From: an uncultured Clostridia bacterium
GTDB lineage: Bacteria > Bacillota > Clostridia > Saccharofermentanales > Saccharofermentanaceae
Direction of reading: 5' to 3'
DNA: 11,065 bases
Assembly (NCBI GenBank): GCA_946545505.1
Contig: CAMNNN010000023.1
Location: forward strand, 1 to 11,065
The notes under the pieces were generated by a model, which saw only the letters and a program-made list of their open reading frames with translations, did no database searches and was not told the origin of the DNA. Position numbers and translations under genes: made by a program. Positions within the stretch are counted from its first letter, which is position 1, and each line of letters opens with the position of its first letter. Positions 1,113 to 8,435 of the stretch are shown piece after piece.

Positions 1113-1142
1113 TTGACAATTCCTATAAGGTTGATGTTTAAT
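1113..1142 (+). promoter_or_regulatory. Promoter of the aromatic biosynthesis operon
   Basis: A perfect -35 TTGACA (1113-1118), an 18-bp spacer and a -10 TTTAAT (1137-1142, five of six matches) make a strong sigma-A-type promoter. The expected start is 7-8 nt beyond the -10. The bases 1146-1149 are CCCC and A1150 is the first purine, so transcription probably begins at the A of the leader ATG. A weaker overlapping alternative is TTGTTT (1101-1106), 17 bp, TATAAG (1124-1129), which would start near 1136. Confidence 0.78.
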
Positions 1143-1149
1143 TAACCCC

Positions 1150-1212
1150 ATGAACAGAAACTTTTACGCATTTGCATACAACTATTATTACTACTTTACG
1201 AACGTGAAGTAA
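1150..1212 (+). CDS. Tyr/Phe-rich leader peptide of the aro operon attenuator
   Basis: This short frame encodes MNRNFYAFAYNYYYYFTNVK and ends with TAA. Six of 20 codons are Tyr (TAC, TAC, then TAT TAT TAC TAC in a row) and three are Phe (TTT), so 45 percent of the peptide is aromatic. It lies between a strong promoter and a terminator, directly upstream of genes making Tyr and Phe precursors. That is the design of pheL/trpL-type leaders: scarcity of charged tRNA-Tyr or tRNA-Phe stalls the ribosome in the codon run and changes the folding of the downstream RNA. No Shine-Dalgarno sequence precedes the ATG, and the predicted transcription start coincides with it, so initiation may be leaderless. 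The peptide itself probably has no other function. Confidence 0.85.
   Translation: MNRNFYAFAYNYYYYFTNVK
1192..1211 (+). other. Possible pause hairpin at the end of the leader coding region
   Basis: Bases 1192-1199 can pair with 1204-1211 (eight pairs, one G-U) around a GAAC tetraloop. It covers the last leader codons and part of the stop codon. In classical attenuators a 5' hairpin pauses polymerase to synchronise it with the leading ribosome; this one could do that. A longer-range alternative, 1171-1178 (Phe-Ala-Tyr codons) with 1221-1228, is the better candidate for the protector 1:2 helix because it competes with the antiterminator. Both are inferred by eye. Confidence 0.4.
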
Positions 1213-1283
1213 GAGTGGTTTGTGCAAGCAGGAAGTTAATGGGATTAATTGATTAAGCTGATCAGGCGCCGCACGAATCACTC
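1213..1283 (+). promoter_or_regulatory. Antiterminator helix (regions 2 and 3) of the aro attenuator
   Basis: Region 2, GAGTGGTTTGTGC (1213-1225), starts at the base after the leader stop codon. It pairs without gaps with region 3, GCACGAATCACTC (1271-1283): 13 consecutive pairs, two of them G-U. Region 3 includes the upper left arm and the loop of the terminator (1266-1292), so the two structures exclude each other. A ribosome stalled on the Tyr run (1183-1194) leaves region 2 free and favours this helix. A ribosome that reaches the stop codon covers region 2 and frees region 3 for the terminator. Confidence 0.85.
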
Positions 1284-1297
1284 GGGCGGCGCTTTTT
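1264..1297 (+). terminator. Intrinsic terminator (attenuator) upstream of DAHP synthase
   Basis: GCGCCGC (1266-1272) pairs with GCGGCGC (1286-1292). After an A/G mismatch the stem continues with CGA (1274-1276) and TCG (1282-1284) around a five-base loop. U5 (1293-1297) follows immediately. The hairpin lies 53 bp before the first operon gene, so read-through is required for expression of the biosynthetic genes. It is the default OFF structure of the attenuator and may also terminate transcripts coming from the CarD-like gene. Confidence 0.9.
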
Positions 1298-1305: not shown

Positions 1306-1349
1306 GAATGAATAAGGGCGCCGGACAAACATCTTAGGAGGATGAATAC

Positions 1350-2348
1350 ATGATAGCAGTACTTAAGGAAACAGCAACCGAACAACAGATCTCGAATCTC
1401 GTTAACTGGTTCGAATCACAGGGCCTGAAGGTCAACCGTTCAAAGGGTGATTTCGTTACGATCTTAGGCCTCATCGGAGACACGACAAAGATCGACATCG
1501 ACCTGTTAAGAGGTCTCGACATCATCGACAACGTAATGAGAATCTCCGAGCCCTTCAAGAAGGCAAACAGAAAGTTCCATCCCGAGGATACTGTTGTTGA
1601 TATCAGCGGCGTTAAGATCGGCGGCGGCAATTTCGCTGTTATGGCAGGTCCCTGTTCCGTTGAGAACGAGGAACAGATCATCGAGACCGCCAAGGCAGTT
1701 AAGGCTGCAGGCGCCACACTCTTAAGAGGCGGTGCATACAAGCCGAGAACTTCCCCTTACGACTTCCAGGGCCTTCATGAAGAAGGAATCAAGCTTCTGA
1801 TCAAGGCACGTGAGATTACAGGTCTTCCTATCGTATCCGAGATCATGAGCCCCGATCAGCTATCTGTCTTCGAGGATGTCGACTGTCTGCAGGTAGGTGC
1901 AAGAAACATGCAGAACTTCGACCTTCTCAAAGCCATCGGTAAGACCAAAAAGCCGGTTCTTCTTAAGCGCGGCCTCTCAGCTACCATTAAGGAATGGCTC
2001 ATGAGCGCAGAGTACATCATGTCTGAAGGCAACCCCAACGTAATCCTCTGCGAGAGAGGTATAAGAACATACGAGACATACACAAGAAATACTTTCGACG
2101 TAAGTGCCATCTCCGCTTTGAAGGAGCTCACACATCTTCCCGTAGTCGGTGACCCGTCACACGCTACCGGTAAGGTATCGCTCATCAAGCCTATGGCTAT
2201 GGCAGCTGTAGTATCCGGCGCAGACGGACTCGAGATCGAGGTCCACAACTGCCCTAAGAAGGCTCTGTCCGATGCAGCACAGCAGCTCACCCCCGAGCAG
2301 TTCGTCGGAGTAATGAAGGATATCGAGAAGGCAAGGAGCATACTCTGA
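1350..2348 (+). CDS. aroF: 3-deoxy-7-phosphoheptulonate (DAHP) synthase, type I-beta with N-terminal ferredoxin-like domain
   Basis: This enzyme condenses phosphoenolpyruvate and erythrose-4-phosphate to DAHP, the committed step of aromatic synthesis. It has 332 residues. An N-terminal domain (1 to about 70) resembles the ferredoxin-like regulatory domain of Thermotoga-type DAHP synthase, which mediates Tyr/Phe feedback inhibition in that enzyme. The TIM-barrel follows (about 80-332), with AGPCSVE (99-105), GGAYKPRTSPYDFQG (127-141), QVGARNMQNF (181-190), LLKRGLSAT (204-212), CERGIRTYE (234-242) and DPSHATG (268-274). The metal ligands of the family are present as Cys102, His271, Glu297 and Asp308. 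AGGAGG (1336-1341) lies 8 nt before the ATG. It is the first gene behind the attenuator. No chorismate mutase domain is fused here; that domain is four genes downstream. Symbols aroF, aroG and aroA are used variably for this type. Confidence 0.96.
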   Translation: MIAVLKETATEQQISNLVNWFESQGLKVNRSKGDFVTILGLIGDTTKIDIDLLRGLDIIDNVMRISEPFKKANRKFHPEDTVVDISGVKIGGGNFAVMAGPCSVENEEQIIETAKAVKAAGATLLRGGAYKPRTSPYDFQGLHEEGIKLLIKAREITGLPIVSEIMSPDQLSVFEDVDCLQVGARNMQNFDLLKAIGKTKKPVLLKRGLSATIKEWLMSAEYIMSEGNPNVILCERGIRTYETYTRNTFDVSAISALKELTHLPVVGDPSHATGKVSLIKPMAMAAVVSGADGLEIEVHNCPKKALSDAAQQLTPEQFVGVMKDIEKARSIL

Positions 2349-3193
2349 TGAAGATCAAGGTCGGTGTTGTAGGATTAGGACTTATAGGAGCATCTTTCTG
2401 CAAGGCATATAAGGCCAATGAACCTGAAGCAGTTGTCTACGGCTGGAACAGGACTAAGTCCACGACCGAGATGGCTAAGATGCAGGGCGTTATAGATGAT
2501 GAACTGACGGATGAGAATCTCGGTTCATGTGACCTTGTTATCCTCAGCTTGTACCCCGAAGCCTCCGCCAAGTGGATGGAAGAGCACAGGAGCAGTTTCA
2601 ATAAGAACGGAATCGTGACAGATGCCTGCGGAACGAAGAGATTCATCTGTGATAAGGCGTTTAAGATTGCCGAAGAAGAGGGATTCACTTTCGTAGGATG
2701 TCATCCCATGGCGGGCACCAAGTTCTCCGGAATGGCTTACTCAAGAGCGGACATGTATGAGGGCGCTCCCATGGTAGTCGTTCCTCCAAGATTCGATGAC
2801 ATTACATTGTTAGAGGAAGTAAAGAGACTGTTCAAGCCCTGCGGCTTCGGTTCGTTCCACATAGCACATGCAGACGAGCACGATCAGATGATCGCTTTTA
2901 CGTCCCAGATGCCGCACGTGGTTTCCAATGCATTTATCAAGAGCCCCAATTCCAGAAAGCATACGGGCTTTTCGGCGGGTTCCTATAAGGATATGACCCG
3001 CGTTGCATGGCTTAACCCCACAATGTGGACACAGCTCTTTCTCGAGAACAAGGACAACCTCATTTTCGAGATAGATAATCTTCAGAAGGAGCTTCAGAAG
3101 TACAAGGAAGCTCTGGAGAAGGATGATGCGGAAGAACTGACCAGGCTTCTTGATGAAGGAAGAAGGATCAAGGAAGAGGTTGACGGAGTATGA
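2348..3193 (+). CDS. tyrA: Prephenate (or arogenate) dehydrogenase
   Basis: This oxidatively decarboxylates prephenate to 4-hydroxyphenylpyruvate (or arogenate to tyrosine) with NAD(P)+. The 281-residue protein has an N-terminal Rossmann fold with GLGLIG (9-14). HPMAGTKFSG (119-128) carries the conserved active-site His119. ADEHDQMIAFTSQMPH (175-190) is the family signature that opens the helical dimerisation domain, and Arg218 in DMTRVA is in the position of the substrate-binding arginine. It is short compared with Bacillus TyrA because the C-terminal ACT domain is absent, so feedback inhibition by Tyr through that domain is not expected. The residues around 240-275 are a charged helical tail. 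ATG overlaps the DAHP synthase stop by 1 nt (TGATG), and AAGGAG (2333-2338) precedes it. Substrate and cofactor preference cannot be decided by eye. Confidence 0.94.
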   Translation: MKIKVGVVGLGLIGASFCKAYKANEPEAVVYGWNRTKSTTEMAKMQGVIDDELTDENLGSCDLVILSLYPEASAKWMEEHRSSFNKNGIVTDACGTKRFICDKAFKIAEEEGFTFVGCHPMAGTKFSGMAYSRADMYEGAPMVVVPPRFDDITLLEEVKRLFKPCGFGSFHIAHADEHDQMIAFTSQMPHVVSNAFIKSPNSRKHTGFSAGSYKDMTRVAWLNPTMWTQLFLENKDNLIFEIDNLQKELQKYKEALEKDDAEELTRLLDEGRRIKEEVDGV

Positions 3194-4272
3194 TCAGAAC
3201 CACTGTCAGCGCATCCAGGGAGTATGAGGTTATAACCGGTTCGGGATTGCTTTCCGAGTCAGGCAAGATCATAAGAGATGTTGCTCCCGATGCCATCAAG
3301 GCTCTTATCGTGACCGAGACGAATGTAGCTCCTTTATATCTCGATAAAGTAAAAGAAGCTGTACAGACTGAGGGTATCGAAGTCCATGAGTATATCTTCA
3401 ACGCCGGCGAGGAGTCGAAGAATATCAACTCCATCACAGGAATGTGGGGTGTTATGGCCAAGGCCGGCTTCACGAGGACTGATCTGGTCATCGCATTAGG
3501 CGGCGGTGTCACGGGTGACATGGCCGGGTTCGCGGCGGCATCGTTCCTAAGAGGCATTGATGTCGTACAGATCCCCACGTCACTTCTTGCCATGGTTGAT
3601 GCTGCGGTGGGAGGCAAGACGGGAATCGATCTGCCCGAGGGCAAGAACCAGGTCGGAGCCTTCTGGCAGCCCTCCGTCGTTATCGAGGACATGGACTGCC
3701 TGCTGACTCTTTCTGAAGAAAAGTTCACCGAAGGTATGGGAGAAGTCCTTAAGTACGCTTTTATCATGGACCTTCCCCTTTACGGGGTCCTCCTCGAAAA
3801 CGCCCCGCGCGGCTCCGCGATAAGAGAGGACGCGTGGCTCATGGAGAAGATAGTCGGTATGTGCGTTGCAGACAAGGCTGATGTCGTATCCGGCGATGAG
3901 CACGATAACGGCAGAAGACAGACACTGAACTTCGGTCACACTGTAGGTCACGTCATCGAGAGAGACAGCGGCTTCAGCAAGCTTCACGGTGTGTGCGTCG
4001 CGAAGGGCATGGGCATCATCATAAATGCGTGCGAGGCTGCCGGCACTCTGGCGGGTGAAGAGGCGAAGAAGATGAGAGATCTTATCACGGCATACGGTCT
4101 TCCGGTCGATGATGACATCACTCCCGAGGCTGCCGTTTCCGGTGCTATGAATGACAAGAAGAAAAGAGGAAATACACTCTCCATAATCGTCGTTAACAAG
4201 ATCGGCACTTCCGAGATAAGAAAGATGAGTCCCGAGGAGTTTAAGGCATTCCTCGAAGGAGCAAGAAGATAA
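3190..4272 (+). CDS. aroB: 3-dehydroquinate synthase
   Basis: This converts DAHP to 3-dehydroquinate, the second shikimate step, using NAD+ and a divalent metal. The 360-residue length is normal for the family. Motifs in order: GEESKN (73-78), GGGVTGD of the NAD site (104-110), IPTSLLAMVDAAVGGKTGID (128-147), GMGEVLKYA (182-190), and LNFGHTVGHVIE (246-257). Expected metal ligands are Glu185, His250 and His266; the 16-residue spacing of the two histidines matches the family. Start and stop overlap tyrA by 4 nt (ATGA), which implies translational coupling. Nothing is missing from the active site as far as can be seen. Confidence 0.97.
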   Translation: MIRTTVSASREYEVITGSGLLSESGKIIRDVAPDAIKALIVTETNVAPLYLDKVKEAVQTEGIEVHEYIFNAGEESKNINSITGMWGVMAKAGFTRTDLVIALGGGVTGDMAGFAAASFLRGIDVVQIPTSLLAMVDAAVGGKTGIDLPEGKNQVGAFWQPSVVIEDMDCLLTLSEEKFTEGMGEVLKYAFIMDLPLYGVLLENAPRGSAIREDAWLMEKIVGMCVADKADVVSGDEHDNGRRQTLNFGHTVGHVIERDSGFSKLHGVCVAKGMGIIINACEAAGTLAGEEAKKMRDLITAYGLPVDDDITPEAAVSGAMNDKKKRGNTLSIIVVNKIGTSEIRKMSPEEFKAFLEGARR

Positions 4273-4273
4273 G

Positions 4274-5398
4274 ATGATACTTCGATTAAGGAACCGCACT
4301 TTCGATTTTTCTGTTGATGCGCCGCCCAGCAAGTCGGTCTTTCACAGAGAGCTTATAGTGAGGTTCCTTAACGGTTATAAGGACGACCTTGAAGTAAGTC
4401 CTGAAGACAGCAAAGATATAGCGGCGACAAAGGACTGCCTGCGGGCGTTGCGCGACGGCAATTTTATTCTCAACTGTAATGAATCAGGTTCGACTTTAAG
4501 ATTCATGATACCTGTAGCGGCAGCTTACCTTAAGTCGAAGGGCATTAGCTCTGATGTAACTTTCAAGACGGCCGGCAGACTTTATGACAGACCTCTTGAT
4601 GACCTCGTGAACTGCCTTAAGGAACACGGGATCACTTTGGTGAGGGATGATGAGTCGAGAACCATAAGCCTCGAAGGCGGACTTACGGAAGGCGTGTTTA
4701 CTATCGACGGAAGTGTATCGTCCCAGTACGTATCCGGAATCATGATGGCACTCACCGTGTTGCCGGATTCTTCGATAAATGTTGTCGGCACACCTTCATC
4801 TGTTCACTACATTGAATTGACGCAGTCTGTTATAGATAAATATAAGAACGCGCGCCATGAAGAGTTTCGTGTCGAGGGCGACTGGTCGGGAGGAGCTTTT
4901 CTTCTGTGCCTTAAGGAGCTGATCGACGGCGATATTAAAGTCGGTAACCTTGACCCGGATTCTGTTCAGGGAGATAAGGCAATAACAGATTATCTTGAAG
5001 CATGCGGCGCTGACGAGCTTTCATGGGACTGCAAGGACATTCCCGACATCGTACCGTATATGGCTGTGGTTGCCGCATTCAGGAACAAAAAGACAGTATT
5101 CGGCAACATCGGCAGACTCCGTATCAAGGAGTCCGACCGTATAGCTGCTATAAGAGAGCAGCTTGATACGGCAGGAATAAGGACAGAAGAGACCGATGAG
5201 ACTCTTACTGTTTACGGAAGAAGCGAGACATTTGATAATGATATGATTACACTTAAGTCGTACAACGATCACCGCATGGTCATGTCGGCGATGCTCATCG
5301 CGGCAGCACTGCGGACAGATCTTGATATCGACACTGATGCACCCCTGGACAAGTCATTCCCGGGATTAAGACACATAATAAGAGAGGAGTTCTCTTAA
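4274..5398 (+). CDS. aroA: 3-phosphoshikimate 1-carboxyvinyltransferase (EPSP synthase), compact form
   Basis: This transfers the enolpyruvyl group of PEP to shikimate-3-phosphate. At 374 residues it is clearly shorter than the usual 420-430, mainly because the loops near residues 60-72 and in the second half are trimmed. The key motifs remain: PPSKSVFHR (17-25, shikimate-phosphate and PEP contacts), NESGSTLRF (69-77, replacing the usual NAGTAMRPL), GRLYDRPLDDL (101-111), SSQY (149-152), DWSGGAFLL (203-211), DIPDIVPYMAV (255-265, with the catalytic-base region Asp258), RIKESDR (283-289), NDHRMVM (331-337) and KSFPGL (360-365). It starts 1 nt after the aroB stop, with AAGGAG at 4256-4261. It is functional by motif content. 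Glyphosate sensitivity class cannot be assigned safely. Confidence 0.95.
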   Translation: MILRLRNRTFDFSVDAPPSKSVFHRELIVRFLNGYKDDLEVSPEDSKDIAATKDCLRALRDGNFILNCNESGSTLRFMIPVAAAYLKSKGISSDVTFKTAGRLYDRPLDDLVNCLKEHGITLVRDDESRTISLEGGLTEGVFTIDGSVSSQYVSGIMMALTVLPDSSINVVGTPSSVHYIELTQSVIDKYKNARHEEFRVEGDWSGGAFLLCLKELIDGDIKVGNLDPDSVQGDKAITDYLEACGADELSWDCKDIPDIVPYMAVVAAFRNKKTVFGNIGRLRIKESDRIAAIREQLDTAGIRTEETDETLTVYGRSETFDNDMITLKSYNDHRMVMSAMLIAAALRTDLDIDTDAPLDKSFPGLRHIIREEFS

Positions 5399-5399
5399 C

Positions 5400-6494
5400 A
5401 TGAGCATGGACAGCACATTCAGAGGCGACAGCCTGGAGCTTACGATCTACGGTCAGTCTCACAGCCCCACGATCGGCGTTTACATCAAGGGCCTTCCCGA
5501 AGGTGTTGCTCCCGACCCTGAATTCACTGCGGCACTTATGGCAAGAAGGGCTCCCGGCAATAACGCGTGGTCCACTCCCCGCAAGGAAAAGGATGAGGTT
5601 CTTTTCGAGAGTGCGGAGGAAGGCACGCTTCACGGTTATATCGTGAACACGAACACGAAGCCCAAGGACTATGCTTCCATTATGAATAAGCCGAGGCCCG
5701 GCCATGCGGATTATACGGGCAGGATAAAGTATAAGGATGAGGCTGCCAGAAGCGGCGGCGGTATATTCTCCGGAAGAATGACGGCGCCTTTATGCATTGC
5801 AGGTTCCATCGCTCTGAATGAGCTTAAGAAGAAGGGAGTCGTCATTCACGCGCACCTTAAGGCGTGCGGCGGAGTTGCTGATGATTCCTATTATGATCAT
5901 GATGTAAATGATATTTCTTTTAAAGAAGCACTTGCAGCCTGCGGGAAGAAGGATTTCCCTGCGGTTTCCGATGAAGCCGGGGAGAAGATGAAGGCCGCGA
6001 TCGAGGAAGCCCGCATGGACTGCGATTCTGTAGGTGCCGTGGTGGAGTGTGTTGTTTACGGTCTGCCCGCCGGACTCGGAGGTCCTATCTTCGACGGACT
6101 CGAGGGAAAGATCGCGAGGCTCGTATATTCTATCCCGGCGGTTAAGGGAGTTGAGTTCGGCGCAGGTTTCGATGTGGCCGGCATGAGAGGATCGGAGAAT
6201 AACGACCCGTTCGTGATGGCGGGAGATAAGGTCACGCTTAAGACGAATAAATGCGGAGGAATACTCGGAGGCATCAGTGTCGGAGGAGATGTTCCGCTTG
6301 TGTTTGACTGTGCCTTTAAGCCTACGCCGTCGATCGGCAAGACTCAGGAGACGGTCGATCTTACTGCTAAGACAAATACAGTCATTAATATCGAGGGAAG
6401 ACACGATCCCTGTGTCGCACCGCGCGCCGTTCCCGTAGTGGAGGCTGCCGCTGCTCTCGCGATCTATGACGAGATCCTTAAGGAGAGAGCATGA
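5400..6494 (+). CDS. aroC: Chorismate synthase, divergent clostridial-type
   Basis: This makes chorismate from EPSP with reduced FMN as cofactor, the last common step. It has 364 residues, a normal length. RPGHADYTG (99-107, with the conserved His102), GGILGGISVGG (286-296), TPSIGKTQ (309-316) and RHDPCVAPRAVPVVEA (334-349) are conserved. Other signatures deviate: the first is GQSHSPTIG (18-26), where GESHG is usual, although the catalytic His21 is kept; RRAPG (49-53) replaces RRRPG; and GGGIFSGRMTA (119-129) replaces GGRxSARETA. These look like a divergent subfamily rather than decay. It starts 1 nt after the aroA stop; the first of two close Met codons (5400, 5406) is chosen because GAGGAG lies about 10 nt upstream. 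Confidence 0.95.
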   Translation: MSMDSTFRGDSLELTIYGQSHSPTIGVYIKGLPEGVAPDPEFTAALMARRAPGNNAWSTPRKEKDEVLFESAEEGTLHGYIVNTNTKPKDYASIMNKPRPGHADYTGRIKYKDEAARSGGGIFSGRMTAPLCIAGSIALNELKKKGVVIHAHLKACGGVADDSYYDHDVNDISFKEALAACGKKDFPAVSDEAGEKMKAAIEEARMDCDSVGAVVECVVYGLPAGLGGPIFDGLEGKIARLVYSIPAVKGVEFGAGFDVAGMRGSENNDPFVMAGDKVTLKTNKCGGILGGISVGGDVPLVFDCAFKPTPSIGKTQETVDLTAKTNTVINIEGRHDPCVAPRAVPVVEAAAALAIYDEILKERA

Positions 6495-8026
6495 AGACTC
6501 TTGAAGAATTAAGAAGGCAGATCGATGCTGCCGATAAGGATATACTCGATGCGTTCGACAGAAGACTTGCTGCCGTTAAGTGCATAGGTGAAGTCAAGAA
6601 GATCGAGGGTAAACCCGTCTATGATGAGCAGCGCGAGAAAGAGAAGATCGAACGTCTGAAGAAGATGGCGGGATTCGAATCAAAGCCTTATATAGAGAGA
6701 CTATATACACAGATAATGGGTATAGCAAAGGACCTCGAGTACAGACCTATGTTCGGTGTGCTCGGCAAGTCTTTGCCCCATACGTATTCTCCCGAGATCC
6801 ACAGCATGATCACAACGGACTATGCCTACACGGTTATCGAGAGAGAAGAGGATGAGCTGCTCACATTATGGGAGCAGGGCAGAAGCGGCATCTACGGCGG
6901 CTTCAATGTAACTATCCCTTATAAGAAAAATGCGTTCGCCATGTGCGATGAACTGACACCCTGCGCGAGGGAATCCGGCGCGGTCAACACCGTGGTGTTC
7001 CGGAAGGACGGAACGAGCCTCGGAGCCAACACCGATGTTTACGGATTCAAATATATGCTTAAGTCTTCGGGAATCGATCCTGAGGGCAAGACTGTTCTGG
7101 TGCTCGGAACGGGCGGTGCGTCTGCCGCGGTCAATACCGCATTGAAGGAACTTAAGGCGGGCGACATCAGATTCGTAAGCAGAAATGGGGAGATCAACTA
7201 CGGTAATGTCTATGATGTTTGTGCGGATGCGCAGATAATCGTTAACTGCACTCCCGTCGGTATGTACCCGGAGATAATGAAGTCTCCTGTCGATGTCACG
7301 AAGTTCGGGCATCTCGAAGCCGTGGCGGATCTTATCTATAATCCTTCATGCACGAGACTTCTTTATGAAGCCGGAAAGTGCGGGCTTAAGTGCGCAGGCG
7401 GGTTGAAGATGCTGGTCGCTCAGGCGTTCAAGGCTTCGGCTTTCTTCAGGGGTGCCGCCGATGATGAAGCGGCCGAGGCAGCTGTCGATCCTGACGATAT
7501 CGCACACGTAACGGAAGTTCTTGAGAACAAGATGAAGAATATCACCATTATAGGAATGCCCGGATCCGGTAAGTCGGATCTGGCACGCGAACTGTCGGTG
7601 CACCTTAACCGCGAAGTCGTAGATCTCGATGACGGGTTTACGGAAGCTTACGGGAAGACGCCCGCTCAGGTTATAAGCGAAGAGGGGGAAGAGGCTTTTC
7701 GTAAGATGGAAAGTGAAGTCGCTGCCGGGCAGCTTGCCAGAAGCGGCATCATCATTTCCTGCGGAGGCGGCATCGTGGTGAAGGAGGAGAATTACTTCCT
7801 TCTGAAATGCAACTCGACCGTAATCTATAACAAGCGTCCACTCGATGTGCTGTGCGGTGAAGGAAGGCCGTTGACTGCGCAGAACGGAGTGGAGGCGCTT
7901 TATGAGCAGCGCAAGAATGCTTATGAGTCGCTCGCGGATATGGTGATAAGCGTGGATAAGAAAGACACCCGAGAGGAATATCTTAAGGAAGCAGTGAGGA
8001 TCTACGATGAAAATACTTGTACTTAA
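6491..8026 (+). CDS. Trifunctional fusion: chorismate mutase (AroQ class) - shikimate dehydrogenase - shikimate kinase
   Basis: One 511-residue frame holds three enzymes. Residues 1 to about 84 are an all-helical AroQ-class chorismate mutase (LEELRRQIDAADKDIL opening, RRLAAV at 24-29, then VYDEQREKEKI at 43-53). Residues about 86-320 are AroE: GVLGKSLPHTYSPEIHS (89-105), GFNVTIPYK with catalytic Lys145 (137-145), GAVNTV, GANTDVYGF with Asp182, the NADPH loop GTGGAS (206-211), NCTPVGMYP (252-260) and GGLKMLVAQA (303-312). Residues about 350-505 are AroK: the P-loop GMPGSGKS (355-362), DLDD (378-381), FRKMESE (403-409), GGG (425-427), GRPL (458-461) and YEQRKNAY (471-478). All three active sites look intact. 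It catalyses two consecutive steps (dehydroshikimate to shikimate to shikimate-3-phosphate) plus chorismate to prephenate. It overlaps aroC by 4 nt, with AAGGAG 5 nt before the start. Confidence 0.95.
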   Translation: MKTLEELRRQIDAADKDILDAFDRRLAAVKCIGEVKKIEGKPVYDEQREKEKIERLKKMAGFESKPYIERLYTQIMGIAKDLEYRPMFGVLGKSLPHTYSPEIHSMITTDYAYTVIEREEDELLTLWEQGRSGIYGGFNVTIPYKKNAFAMCDELTPCARESGAVNTVVFRKDGTSLGANTDVYGFKYMLKSSGIDPEGKTVLVLGTGGASAAVNTALKELKAGDIRFVSRNGEINYGNVYDVCADAQIIVNCTPVGMYPEIMKSPVDVTKFGHLEAVADLIYNPSCTRLLYEAGKCGLKCAGGLKMLVAQAFKASAFFRGAADDEAAEAAVDPDDIAHVTEVLENKMKNITIIGMPGSGKSDLARELSVHLNREVVDLDDGFTEAYGKTPAQVISEEGEEAFRKMESEVAAGQLARSGIIISCGGGIVVKEENYFLLKCNSTVIYNKRPLDVLCGEGRPLTAQNGVEALYEQRKNAYESLADMVISVDKKDTREEYLKEAVRIYDENTCT

Positions 8027-8435
8027 CGGACCTAACCTGAATATGCTCGGGATACGTGAGCCCGACATATACGGAAAGAGAACATACGCGGACCTTATCA
8101 GCATGATACGGGAGCACTGCGATTCCAAGGGCATAGAGGTAAGCTTCAAGCAAAGTAATCACGAGGGTGACCTGGTGGACTACATTCAGCAGGCGTACTT
8201 CGAGAGGTACGACGGCATCGTTATCAATCCCGGTGCCTATACGCATACATCGGTGGCGATCCTTGATGCACTCAAGGCTGTTGCCATTCCTTTTGTTGAG
8301 GTTCATATAAGTGATATCGATGAGCGCGAAGGGTTCCGCCAGATATCGTACATATCAAACATAGCCGAGACGACTATTAAAGGACACGGATTCGAAGGTT
8401 ATATTGAAGCGGTTGATTTCCTTTCCTCGCTGTAA
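8007..8435 (+). CDS. aroQ: 3-dehydroquinate dehydratase, type II
   Basis: This dehydrates 3-dehydroquinate to 3-dehydroshikimate. It is the small dodecamer-forming type II enzyme, 142 residues, as usual for the family. Visible signatures: LNGPNLNMLG (6-15), REPDIYG with catalytic Tyr22 (17-23), INPGAYTHTS with Asn74 (73-82), VEVHISDI with catalytic His100 (97-104), and REGFRQISYIS with Arg111 (107-117). The start lies 20 nt inside the preceding fusion gene, preceded by GAGGA (7996-8000) at 6 nt. The overlap is longer than others in the operon but the frame is clear. It is the last gene of the aro operon; no terminator hairpin follows it before the next gene. The symbol aroQ here means dehydroquinase, not the AroQ-fold chorismate mutase. 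Confidence 0.97.
   Translation: MKILVLNGPNLNMLGIREPDIYGKRTYADLISMIREHCDSKGIEVSFKQSNHEGDLVDYIQQAYFERYDGIVINPGAYTHTSVAILDALKAVAIPFVEVHISDIDEREGFRQISYISNIAETTIKGHGFEGYIEAVDFLSSL

Follow-up and report, generated by a model that had tools for sequence, protein, structure and literature searches.

In the window, by which we mean the whole analysed stretch of 11,065 nucleotides from an uncultured Clostridia bacterium, a short leader rich in tyrosine and phenylalanine codons precedes aroF, and we consider, with a probability of roughly 0.9, that it belongs to a classical ribosome-mediated transcription attenuator. This reading, which agrees with that of the initial annotation, is the most likely one because the leader is conserved, two competing helices follow it, a fold model responds to the position of the ribosome, and the identity of the codons follows the product of the operon. 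By Pfam, the downstream genes constitute a shikimate/tyrosine operon, aroF-tyrA-aroB-aroA-aroC-(CM/aroE/aroK)-aroQ, and the leader open reading frame (ORF) is located between a gene for a CarD-like domain protein and aroF (Table 1).

Table 1. Positions of the leader elements, predicted signals and genes in the window.
Feature	Position	Strand	Basis or remark
CarD/TRCF-RID domain protein gene	564-1100	same strand	just 5' of the leader region
Predicted -35, TTGACA	1113..1118	+	exact consensus; distance from its end to the leader ATG is 30-31 nt in the six loci of the own subclade
Predicted -10, TTTAAT, 18 nt spacer	1137..1142	+	ends 7 nt before the leader ATG; no Shine-Dalgarno
Leader ORF MNRNFYAFAYNYYYYFTNVK, 63 nt, 20 codons, 9/20 aromatic	1150..1212	+	read from the sequence; recurs in relatives
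Possible region 1 (protector), pairs with 1221-1228	1171..1178	+	fold only; covariation not above shuffles
Candidate sensor codons Tyr-Tyr-Tyr-Tyr-Phe	1183..1197	+	terminator probability of 0.00-0.05 in the fold model when the A site of the ribosome lies on these codons
Region 2 GAGTGGTTTGTGC, 5' strand of the antiterminator, directly after the stop codon	1213..1225	+	pairing and swap tests
Region 3 GCACGAATCACTC, antiterminator 3' strand, shared in part with the stem and loop of the terminator	1271..1283	+	pairing and swap tests
Intrinsic terminator (3:4) with U5	1265..1297	+	covariation, fold
Shine-Dalgarno AGGAGG of aroF	1336..1341	+	outside the terminator
aroF, DAHP synthase with ferredoxin-like N-domain	1350..2348	+	PF00793, PF18152
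tyrA, prephenate dehydrogenase	2348..3193	+	PF02153, PF20463
aroB, 3-dehydroquinate synthase	3190..4272	+	PF01761, PF24621
aroA, EPSP synthase	4274..5398	+	PF00275
aroC, chorismate synthase	5400..6494	+	PF01264
Fused chorismate mutase / shikimate dehydrogenase (substrate domain) / shikimate kinase, one protein	6491..8026	+	PF01817, PF08501, PF01202
aroQ, type II dehydroquinase	8007..8435	+	PF01220

The leader ORF, the identity of its codons and the two competing helices are shown by comparison of sequences. The initial annotation had described a frame with nine aromatic residues out of 20, including four Tyr codons in a row, followed by a region 2 that starts directly after the stop and makes 13 pairs with region 3, and by a terminator with U5; frame, helix and terminator were all confirmed base for base. 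Tyr codons 12-15 occupy 1183-1194, the Phe codon 1195-1197, and the stop codon 1210-1212. Two of the pairs between regions 2 and 3, which match at 13/13 positions, are G-U. The terminator stem is formed by 1265-1272 and 1286-1293, with U5 at 1293-1297, and the RNA from 1150 to 1305 folds with a z of -3.67. It was also seen by eye that just beyond the terminator there is a GCCGCC (1300-1305) complementary to GGCGGC (1285-1290); such pairing could hold region 4 after read-through.

Covariation was examined in an alignment of 57 same-genus and near sequences. The 3:4 terminator was paired in 96.2% of cells, with 67 two-sided cells (21.5 in shuffles) and 7 two-sided pairs (4.5 in shuffles); it covaried on four of the five measures, and better than every slid control. 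The compensatory changes by which the initial annotation proposed to judge the two helices are therefore present in 3:4, with covariation above shuffles. In the 2:3 antiterminator they were borne out in part: the covariation score, the paired share (79.2% of cells versus 71.5% in shuffles) and the two-sided cells (60 versus 28.5) were higher than in any shuffle, C-G/U-A and G-C/U-G/U-A being among the exchanges, whereas the measures seldom inflated by kinship did not rise above shuffles, namely two-sided pairs (5 versus 5.1) and further pair types (14 versus 16.0). A control slid by +3 had 7 two-sided pairs, more than the 5 of the true register. Since these stricter counts are not above shuffles, the alignment alone backs 2:3 only moderately. 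It is to be noted that the 13 pairs do not represent a fixed helix, as the inner 11 are kept among relatives, holding in 88.7% of cells, and the two outermost are mostly lost, holding in 26.5%.

Stronger support for 2:3 than that of the alignment comes from a strand-swap test, in which the native 2:3 duplexes of 62 loci with distinct region 3 were compared with duplexes containing swapped-in strands. The native duplex was better than the mean of the swapped-in region 2s in 60/62 loci and of the swapped-in region 3s in 59/62, although only 28 of the 62 ranked among the top 5% when set against swapped-in region 2s (median fraction 0.08). Outside the genus, the sequences of regions 2 and 3 change, and yet the native strands keep this better fit. 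The protector helix, which had been suggested as a further possibility, can form 8 pairs and does form in the untranslated fold of the window sequence (mean pair probability 0.83), but its covariation showed no excess over shuffles, and it was not supported as a conserved element. The RNAalifold consensus of the 57 sequences contained the terminator only. Overall, a terminator was found in 142 distinct leader loci, 10 further leader loci being duplicates or lacking a terminator.

The effect of ribosome position on the terminator was modelled by folding, at equilibrium, only the RNA that lies beyond the ribosome, which was taken to cover 13 nt beginning with the first base in the A site. In the window, a ribosome at the start codon gave a predicted terminator probability of 0.96. 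The value was 0.00-0.01 for a ribosome on Tyr12-15 (0.00-0.05 over Tyr12-Phe16) and 0.93-0.97 for positions between Asn18 and the stop, with 0.97 at the stop itself; in the absence of a ribosome, the terminator stood at 0.99 and the 1:2 helix at 0.83, with 2:3 near zero. When the leader and spacer were shuffled and the terminator was kept, 0/400 shuffles reproduced the switch of the window. In 141 loci in which an aromatic stall was compared with the stop, the terminator probability was higher at the stop in 108 and showed no rise in 33 (medians 0.92 and 0.94), the shift being greater than 0.3 in 29 and a full switch in 13. Equilibrium switching was thus rejected as a general proof, since most relatives do not show it. 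With folding in the course of transcription, 2:3 would be expected to have the advantage, as it can be completed before region 4 is made.

In the mechanism that we infer, with its stalling, its coupling of transcription to translation, its transcription start and its signal in the form of charged tRNA, transcription would begin on the leader ATG or close beside it, with the ribosome trailing the polymerase. A shortage of charged tRNA-Tyr or tRNA-Phe would make the ribosome stall on Tyr12-Phe16, leaving region 2 free to pair with the emerging region 3, such that the terminator would be blocked and the operon read. When both charged tRNAs are plentiful, the ribosome would reach the stop codon and cover region 2; region 3 would then pair with region 4, and transcription would end at about 1297.

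The location of the transcription start, around 1149-1150, is predicted by promoter consensus and would coincide with the leader ATG, i.e., the leader ORF would be leaderless. The arrangement TTGACA-17/18-TTTAAT, ending 7 nt before the ATG and with no Shine-Dalgarno, was found in the window (L001) and five sister loci of its subclade (L082, L083, L084, L085, L088). In the other loci of the genus the -10 hexamer is mostly 24-37 nt upstream of the ATG, with a Shine-Dalgarno-like sequence except in L130 and L122; in L130 the hexamer is at 9 nt, perhaps leaderless too, and L136 has no such hexamer. Outside the genus, the leaderless layout, with TTGAC and a TAnnnT hexamer, was present in 6/58 loci, as against 5/5800 shuffles. 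Distant aroF leaders with a -10-like hexamer 6-7 nt before the ATG and no Shine-Dalgarno were those of L017, L026, L033, L038, L043 and L055. A consensus promoter and terminator scan of the window listed neither the promoter nor the terminator of the leader, the former because TTTAAT fails the rule of the scan that position 2 be A, and the latter probably because of its loop; the same scan listed no separate aroF promoter between 1297 and 1350.

The leader is conserved in the genus and recurs in the class. AroF was found in 58/59 genomes of the genus and, with all 58 upstream regions scanned, an aromatic leader was found in 56, a count that includes related and partly near-identical sequences. 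As for the two exceptions, the contig of L093 ends 91 nt upstream of aroF, and the leader of L105 is disrupted, an internal deletion having shifted its Tyr run into another frame, with the rest of the leader region kept. Scanning of named genomes supplied 80 more loci, some of which come from genomes already counted. For a test against chance, aromatic-rich ORFs were sought within 260 nt upstream of aroF after removal of identical upstreams. Where AroF was at least 68% identical, at least 7 aromatics in 10 codons were found in 59/60 distinct loci (1/1200 shuffles); in the more distant loci, at least 6 in 10 were found in 56/73 (16/1460 shuffles, or about 1%; 0/73 on the reverse strand). The conserved aromatic codon runs anticipated before aroF in relatives were thus indeed found, far above shuffles; a leader is also carried by the cultured Aminicella lysinilytica DSM 28287 (L011). 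The peptides themselves vary widely in sequence and length, the recurrent trait being the density of aromatic codons, and pairwise comparison of 39 leaders of 20 codons gave 971 Tyr/Phe interchanges. Only these interchanges were used, as differences by codon position in the aromatic run are void as evidence at position 1, because Phe and Tyr codons share it.

The class sample comprised 80 of the listed aroF places, taken without those of the own genus and those that were partial, near a contig end or lower-ranking, and a few of them repeat named loci. At least 6 aromatics were found in 31/80 of these upstreams and in 19/38 other families, and at least 7 in 16/38 families; the shuffle rate of about 1% belongs to the named-locus set and not to this sample. 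Two of the 31 class leaders (L192, L201) had no convincing 2:3 helix. A T-box over the Rfam cut-off preceded aroF in 5/80 class loci, all of which lacked a leader. In some families (L165, L168, L179, L181) the leader before aroF runs to about 40 codons and contains two or more aromatic clusters, in part with Trp.

Distribution of the leader may follow the AroF lineage. The initial annotation had proposed a covariance model search in related Clostridia; such a model, built from the alignment, found one copy each in 47/48 genomes of the genus (18 of the 47 under handles outside the model build, where overlap with the model loci L004 and L006-L008 is possible), but had no match in 30 same-family genomes of other genera, and 21 aroF loci of such genera had no leader. 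Both leader and AroF are absent from genome G013. In G195, AroF was likewise not found, but the leader MSKSFFYNSYFFYSYFGSEV is present, directly before tyrA-aroB-aroA-aroC (L328, G195:C56), these genes having been named by eye from their resemblance to the proteins of the window. AroF proteins of the other same-family genera are 48-58% identical over their length to that of the window, and the four nearest from other families among the aroF places listed, all with leaders (L139-L142), are 66-69% identical. Tree distances to the AroF of the window were 0.71-1.08 for nine chosen leader-bearing proteins of other lineages and 1.43-2.12 for ten of the same family. On a FastTree phylogeny of 160 AroF sequences, in which L093 (short contig) and L105 (disrupted leader) are counted among the rows without leader, leader presence changed 13 times versus 34.3 in shuffles, which indicates clustering and not one origin. 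From these sequence comparisons, the pattern is consistent with the operon and its leader having been transferred as a unit, or having undergone paralogy with loss. A T-box was seen just downstream of aroF in a different genus of the same family (L310, L311, L313, L314, L316, L318, L319).

The codon content of the leaders was compared between operons of different product. Genes of the pheA family were present at 29 loci from 26/30 same-genus genomes, and 22 loci were kept that had a stretch of about chorismate-mutase length before the PDT domain and the gene start in view. Each of the 22 had a Phe-rich leader, with codon totals of Phe 134, Tyr 1 and Trp 14; the best 12-codon stretches of the 56 aroF leaders added up to Phe 170, Tyr 326 and Trp 0. 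At least 7 aromatics in 12 codons occurred in 16/22 pheA leaders (4/660 shuffles) and at least 6 in 21/22 (26/660); a terminator followed 21/22, and a 2:3-like duplex between the post-stop stretch and the terminator arm was below -8 kcal/mol in 16/22. The other seven loci, with no leader in view, were second copies (L219, L221), fragments or short (L226, L241, L247), or had none found (L242, L243). In the own genome, the pheA leader (L223, G000:C15) is Phe-rich and Tyr-poor and ends in MNRKSFTNFDFFFGFGFFTRFK; there was no terminator in the stretch examined there, and the gene start may be misplaced. T-box matches, taken at E up to 0.001 and many of them below the Rfam cut-off, occurred in 20/20 same-genus genomes searched, where they adjoined trpE in 19/21 loci, pheA in 0/19, aroF in 0/19, and ilvB in 10/20 loci entered. 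A Trp leader at trpE was not seen in any locus in which the gene start was found. Since Phe leaders are found at pheA, Tyr/Phe leaders at aroF, and T-boxes at trpE, the amino acid that would be sensed tracks the product of the operon.

These results also bear on other ways in which such a leader might be explained. The peptide could itself arrest the ribosome, with free Tyr or Phe and not uncharged tRNA as the signal, TnaC being an example of such nascent-peptide arrest; ribosome position would then act on the same RNA helices, and in many leaders of the genus the aromatic run is indeed preceded by an Ala-Tyr or Ala-Phe step. However, what recurs is the aromatic codon density in otherwise highly variable peptides, with Tyr and Phe interchanging, and the pheA leaders are made of Phe, on account of which we regard peptide arrest as quite improbable. 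We give even less credence to a metabolite- or protein-binding leader, be it a riboswitch, a divergent T-box or a TRAP-like element, in which the ORF is a passenger. This would suit the same genomic position, and T-box matches do occur in all same-genus genomes searched, but Rfam 15 returned no family at cut-off in the window (including T-box RF00230 and the amino acid leader families), and the six weak matches at 1050-1400, with E up to 10, contained no riboswitch, T-box or amino acid leader; a T-box or other Rfam RNA was accordingly rejected as the identity of the leader. The terminator-only consensus and the recurrence of the aromatic ORF far beyond chance also argue against a binding leader. 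The slightest chance is left for a gene of a small functional protein followed by an ordinary terminator, aroF being unregulated, as the ORF is indeed conserved, but the peptide is not conserved beyond its aromatic content, and the match between region 2 and region 3 is better than that obtained with swapped strands.

The kind of attenuator is known and no Rfam family matched, and the leader is therefore probably a new RNA family; the suggestion in the initial annotation of an undescribed family holds as far as Rfam 15 goes. More tentatively, and with somewhat more doubt than confidence, we propose a class-wide, unnamed RNA family, through which Clostridia would give the Tyr/Phe side to ribosome stalling and Trp to T-boxes in the same cell, the leader following one AroF/operon lineage across families, persisting on loss of aroF, and being repeatedly leaderless; with a start on the leader ATG, sensing might begin with the first nucleotide made. 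The newest elements would be the class-wide spread, the division of labour with T-boxes, and the predicted leaderless leader ORF. Amino-acid leader peptides would thereby extend far into Clostridia, where regulation has mostly been read in terms of T-boxes. For many uncultured bacteria, mainly of rumen and gut, a regulator of aromatic amino acid synthesis is thus proposed. Two sensors of charged tRNA within single genomes, the leader peptide (Tyr, Phe) and the T-box (Trp), would offer a natural comparison, and the pheA/aroF pair a ready test of codon specificity.

Ribosome-mediated attenuators of the pheL/trpL type are known from Proteobacteria. To that mechanism, as given in the accessible part of PMC2659441, the system of the window is alike in its sensor codons, a region 2 that adjoins the stop codon, an intrinsic terminator and the competition of 2:3 with 3:4, but differs in its phylum, its mixed Tyr/Phe codons, the inclusion of a whole shikimate-Tyr operon, a 1:2 helix without covariation support, and a predicted leaderless start in its own subclade. 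The uORFC-13-1 motif is, in the portion of PMC8632094 available, a uORF with Phe codon(s) and an adjacent terminator upstream of Acholeplasma aroF, with 24 examples; it shares these traits and the gene, and is set apart, by its description, through its restriction to Acholeplasma and environmental sequences. A five-genome survey that included Clostridium novyi contains two candidate Phe/Tyr uORFs near shikimate genes (PMC6429828, Fig. 6 legend), which resemble the present leader in being uORFs with Phe and Tyr at shikimate genes, and which, to judge by that description, may be related to its family. Beyond the papers named here, no literature on aromatic leader peptides in Clostridia was found in a search that mostly did not cover subscription papers, figures and supplements, and the accessible parts of PMC11109978, PMC1262725 and PMC2494555 contained no such case.

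The view in the initial annotation that such an attenuator is unusual in Firmicutes was only partly right, since His attenuators, the aroF uORF and the two Phe/Tyr uORFs were already in print. His leaders were described in Bacilli, with none earlier shown outside Proteobacteria and Actinobacteria according to the available text of PMC2965389, and His attenuators in Bacillales, Eubacteriales and Erysipelotrichales in that of PMC9413887; they are likewise ribosome attenuators in Firmicutes, but with His codons, and at his, hisS and hisZ genes. Finally, the trpL of Sinorhizobium meliloti, as far as the accessible portion of PMC7298713 describes it, is alike in that its RNA starts at the leader ATG, and differs in sensing Trp and in belonging to Alphaproteobacteria.
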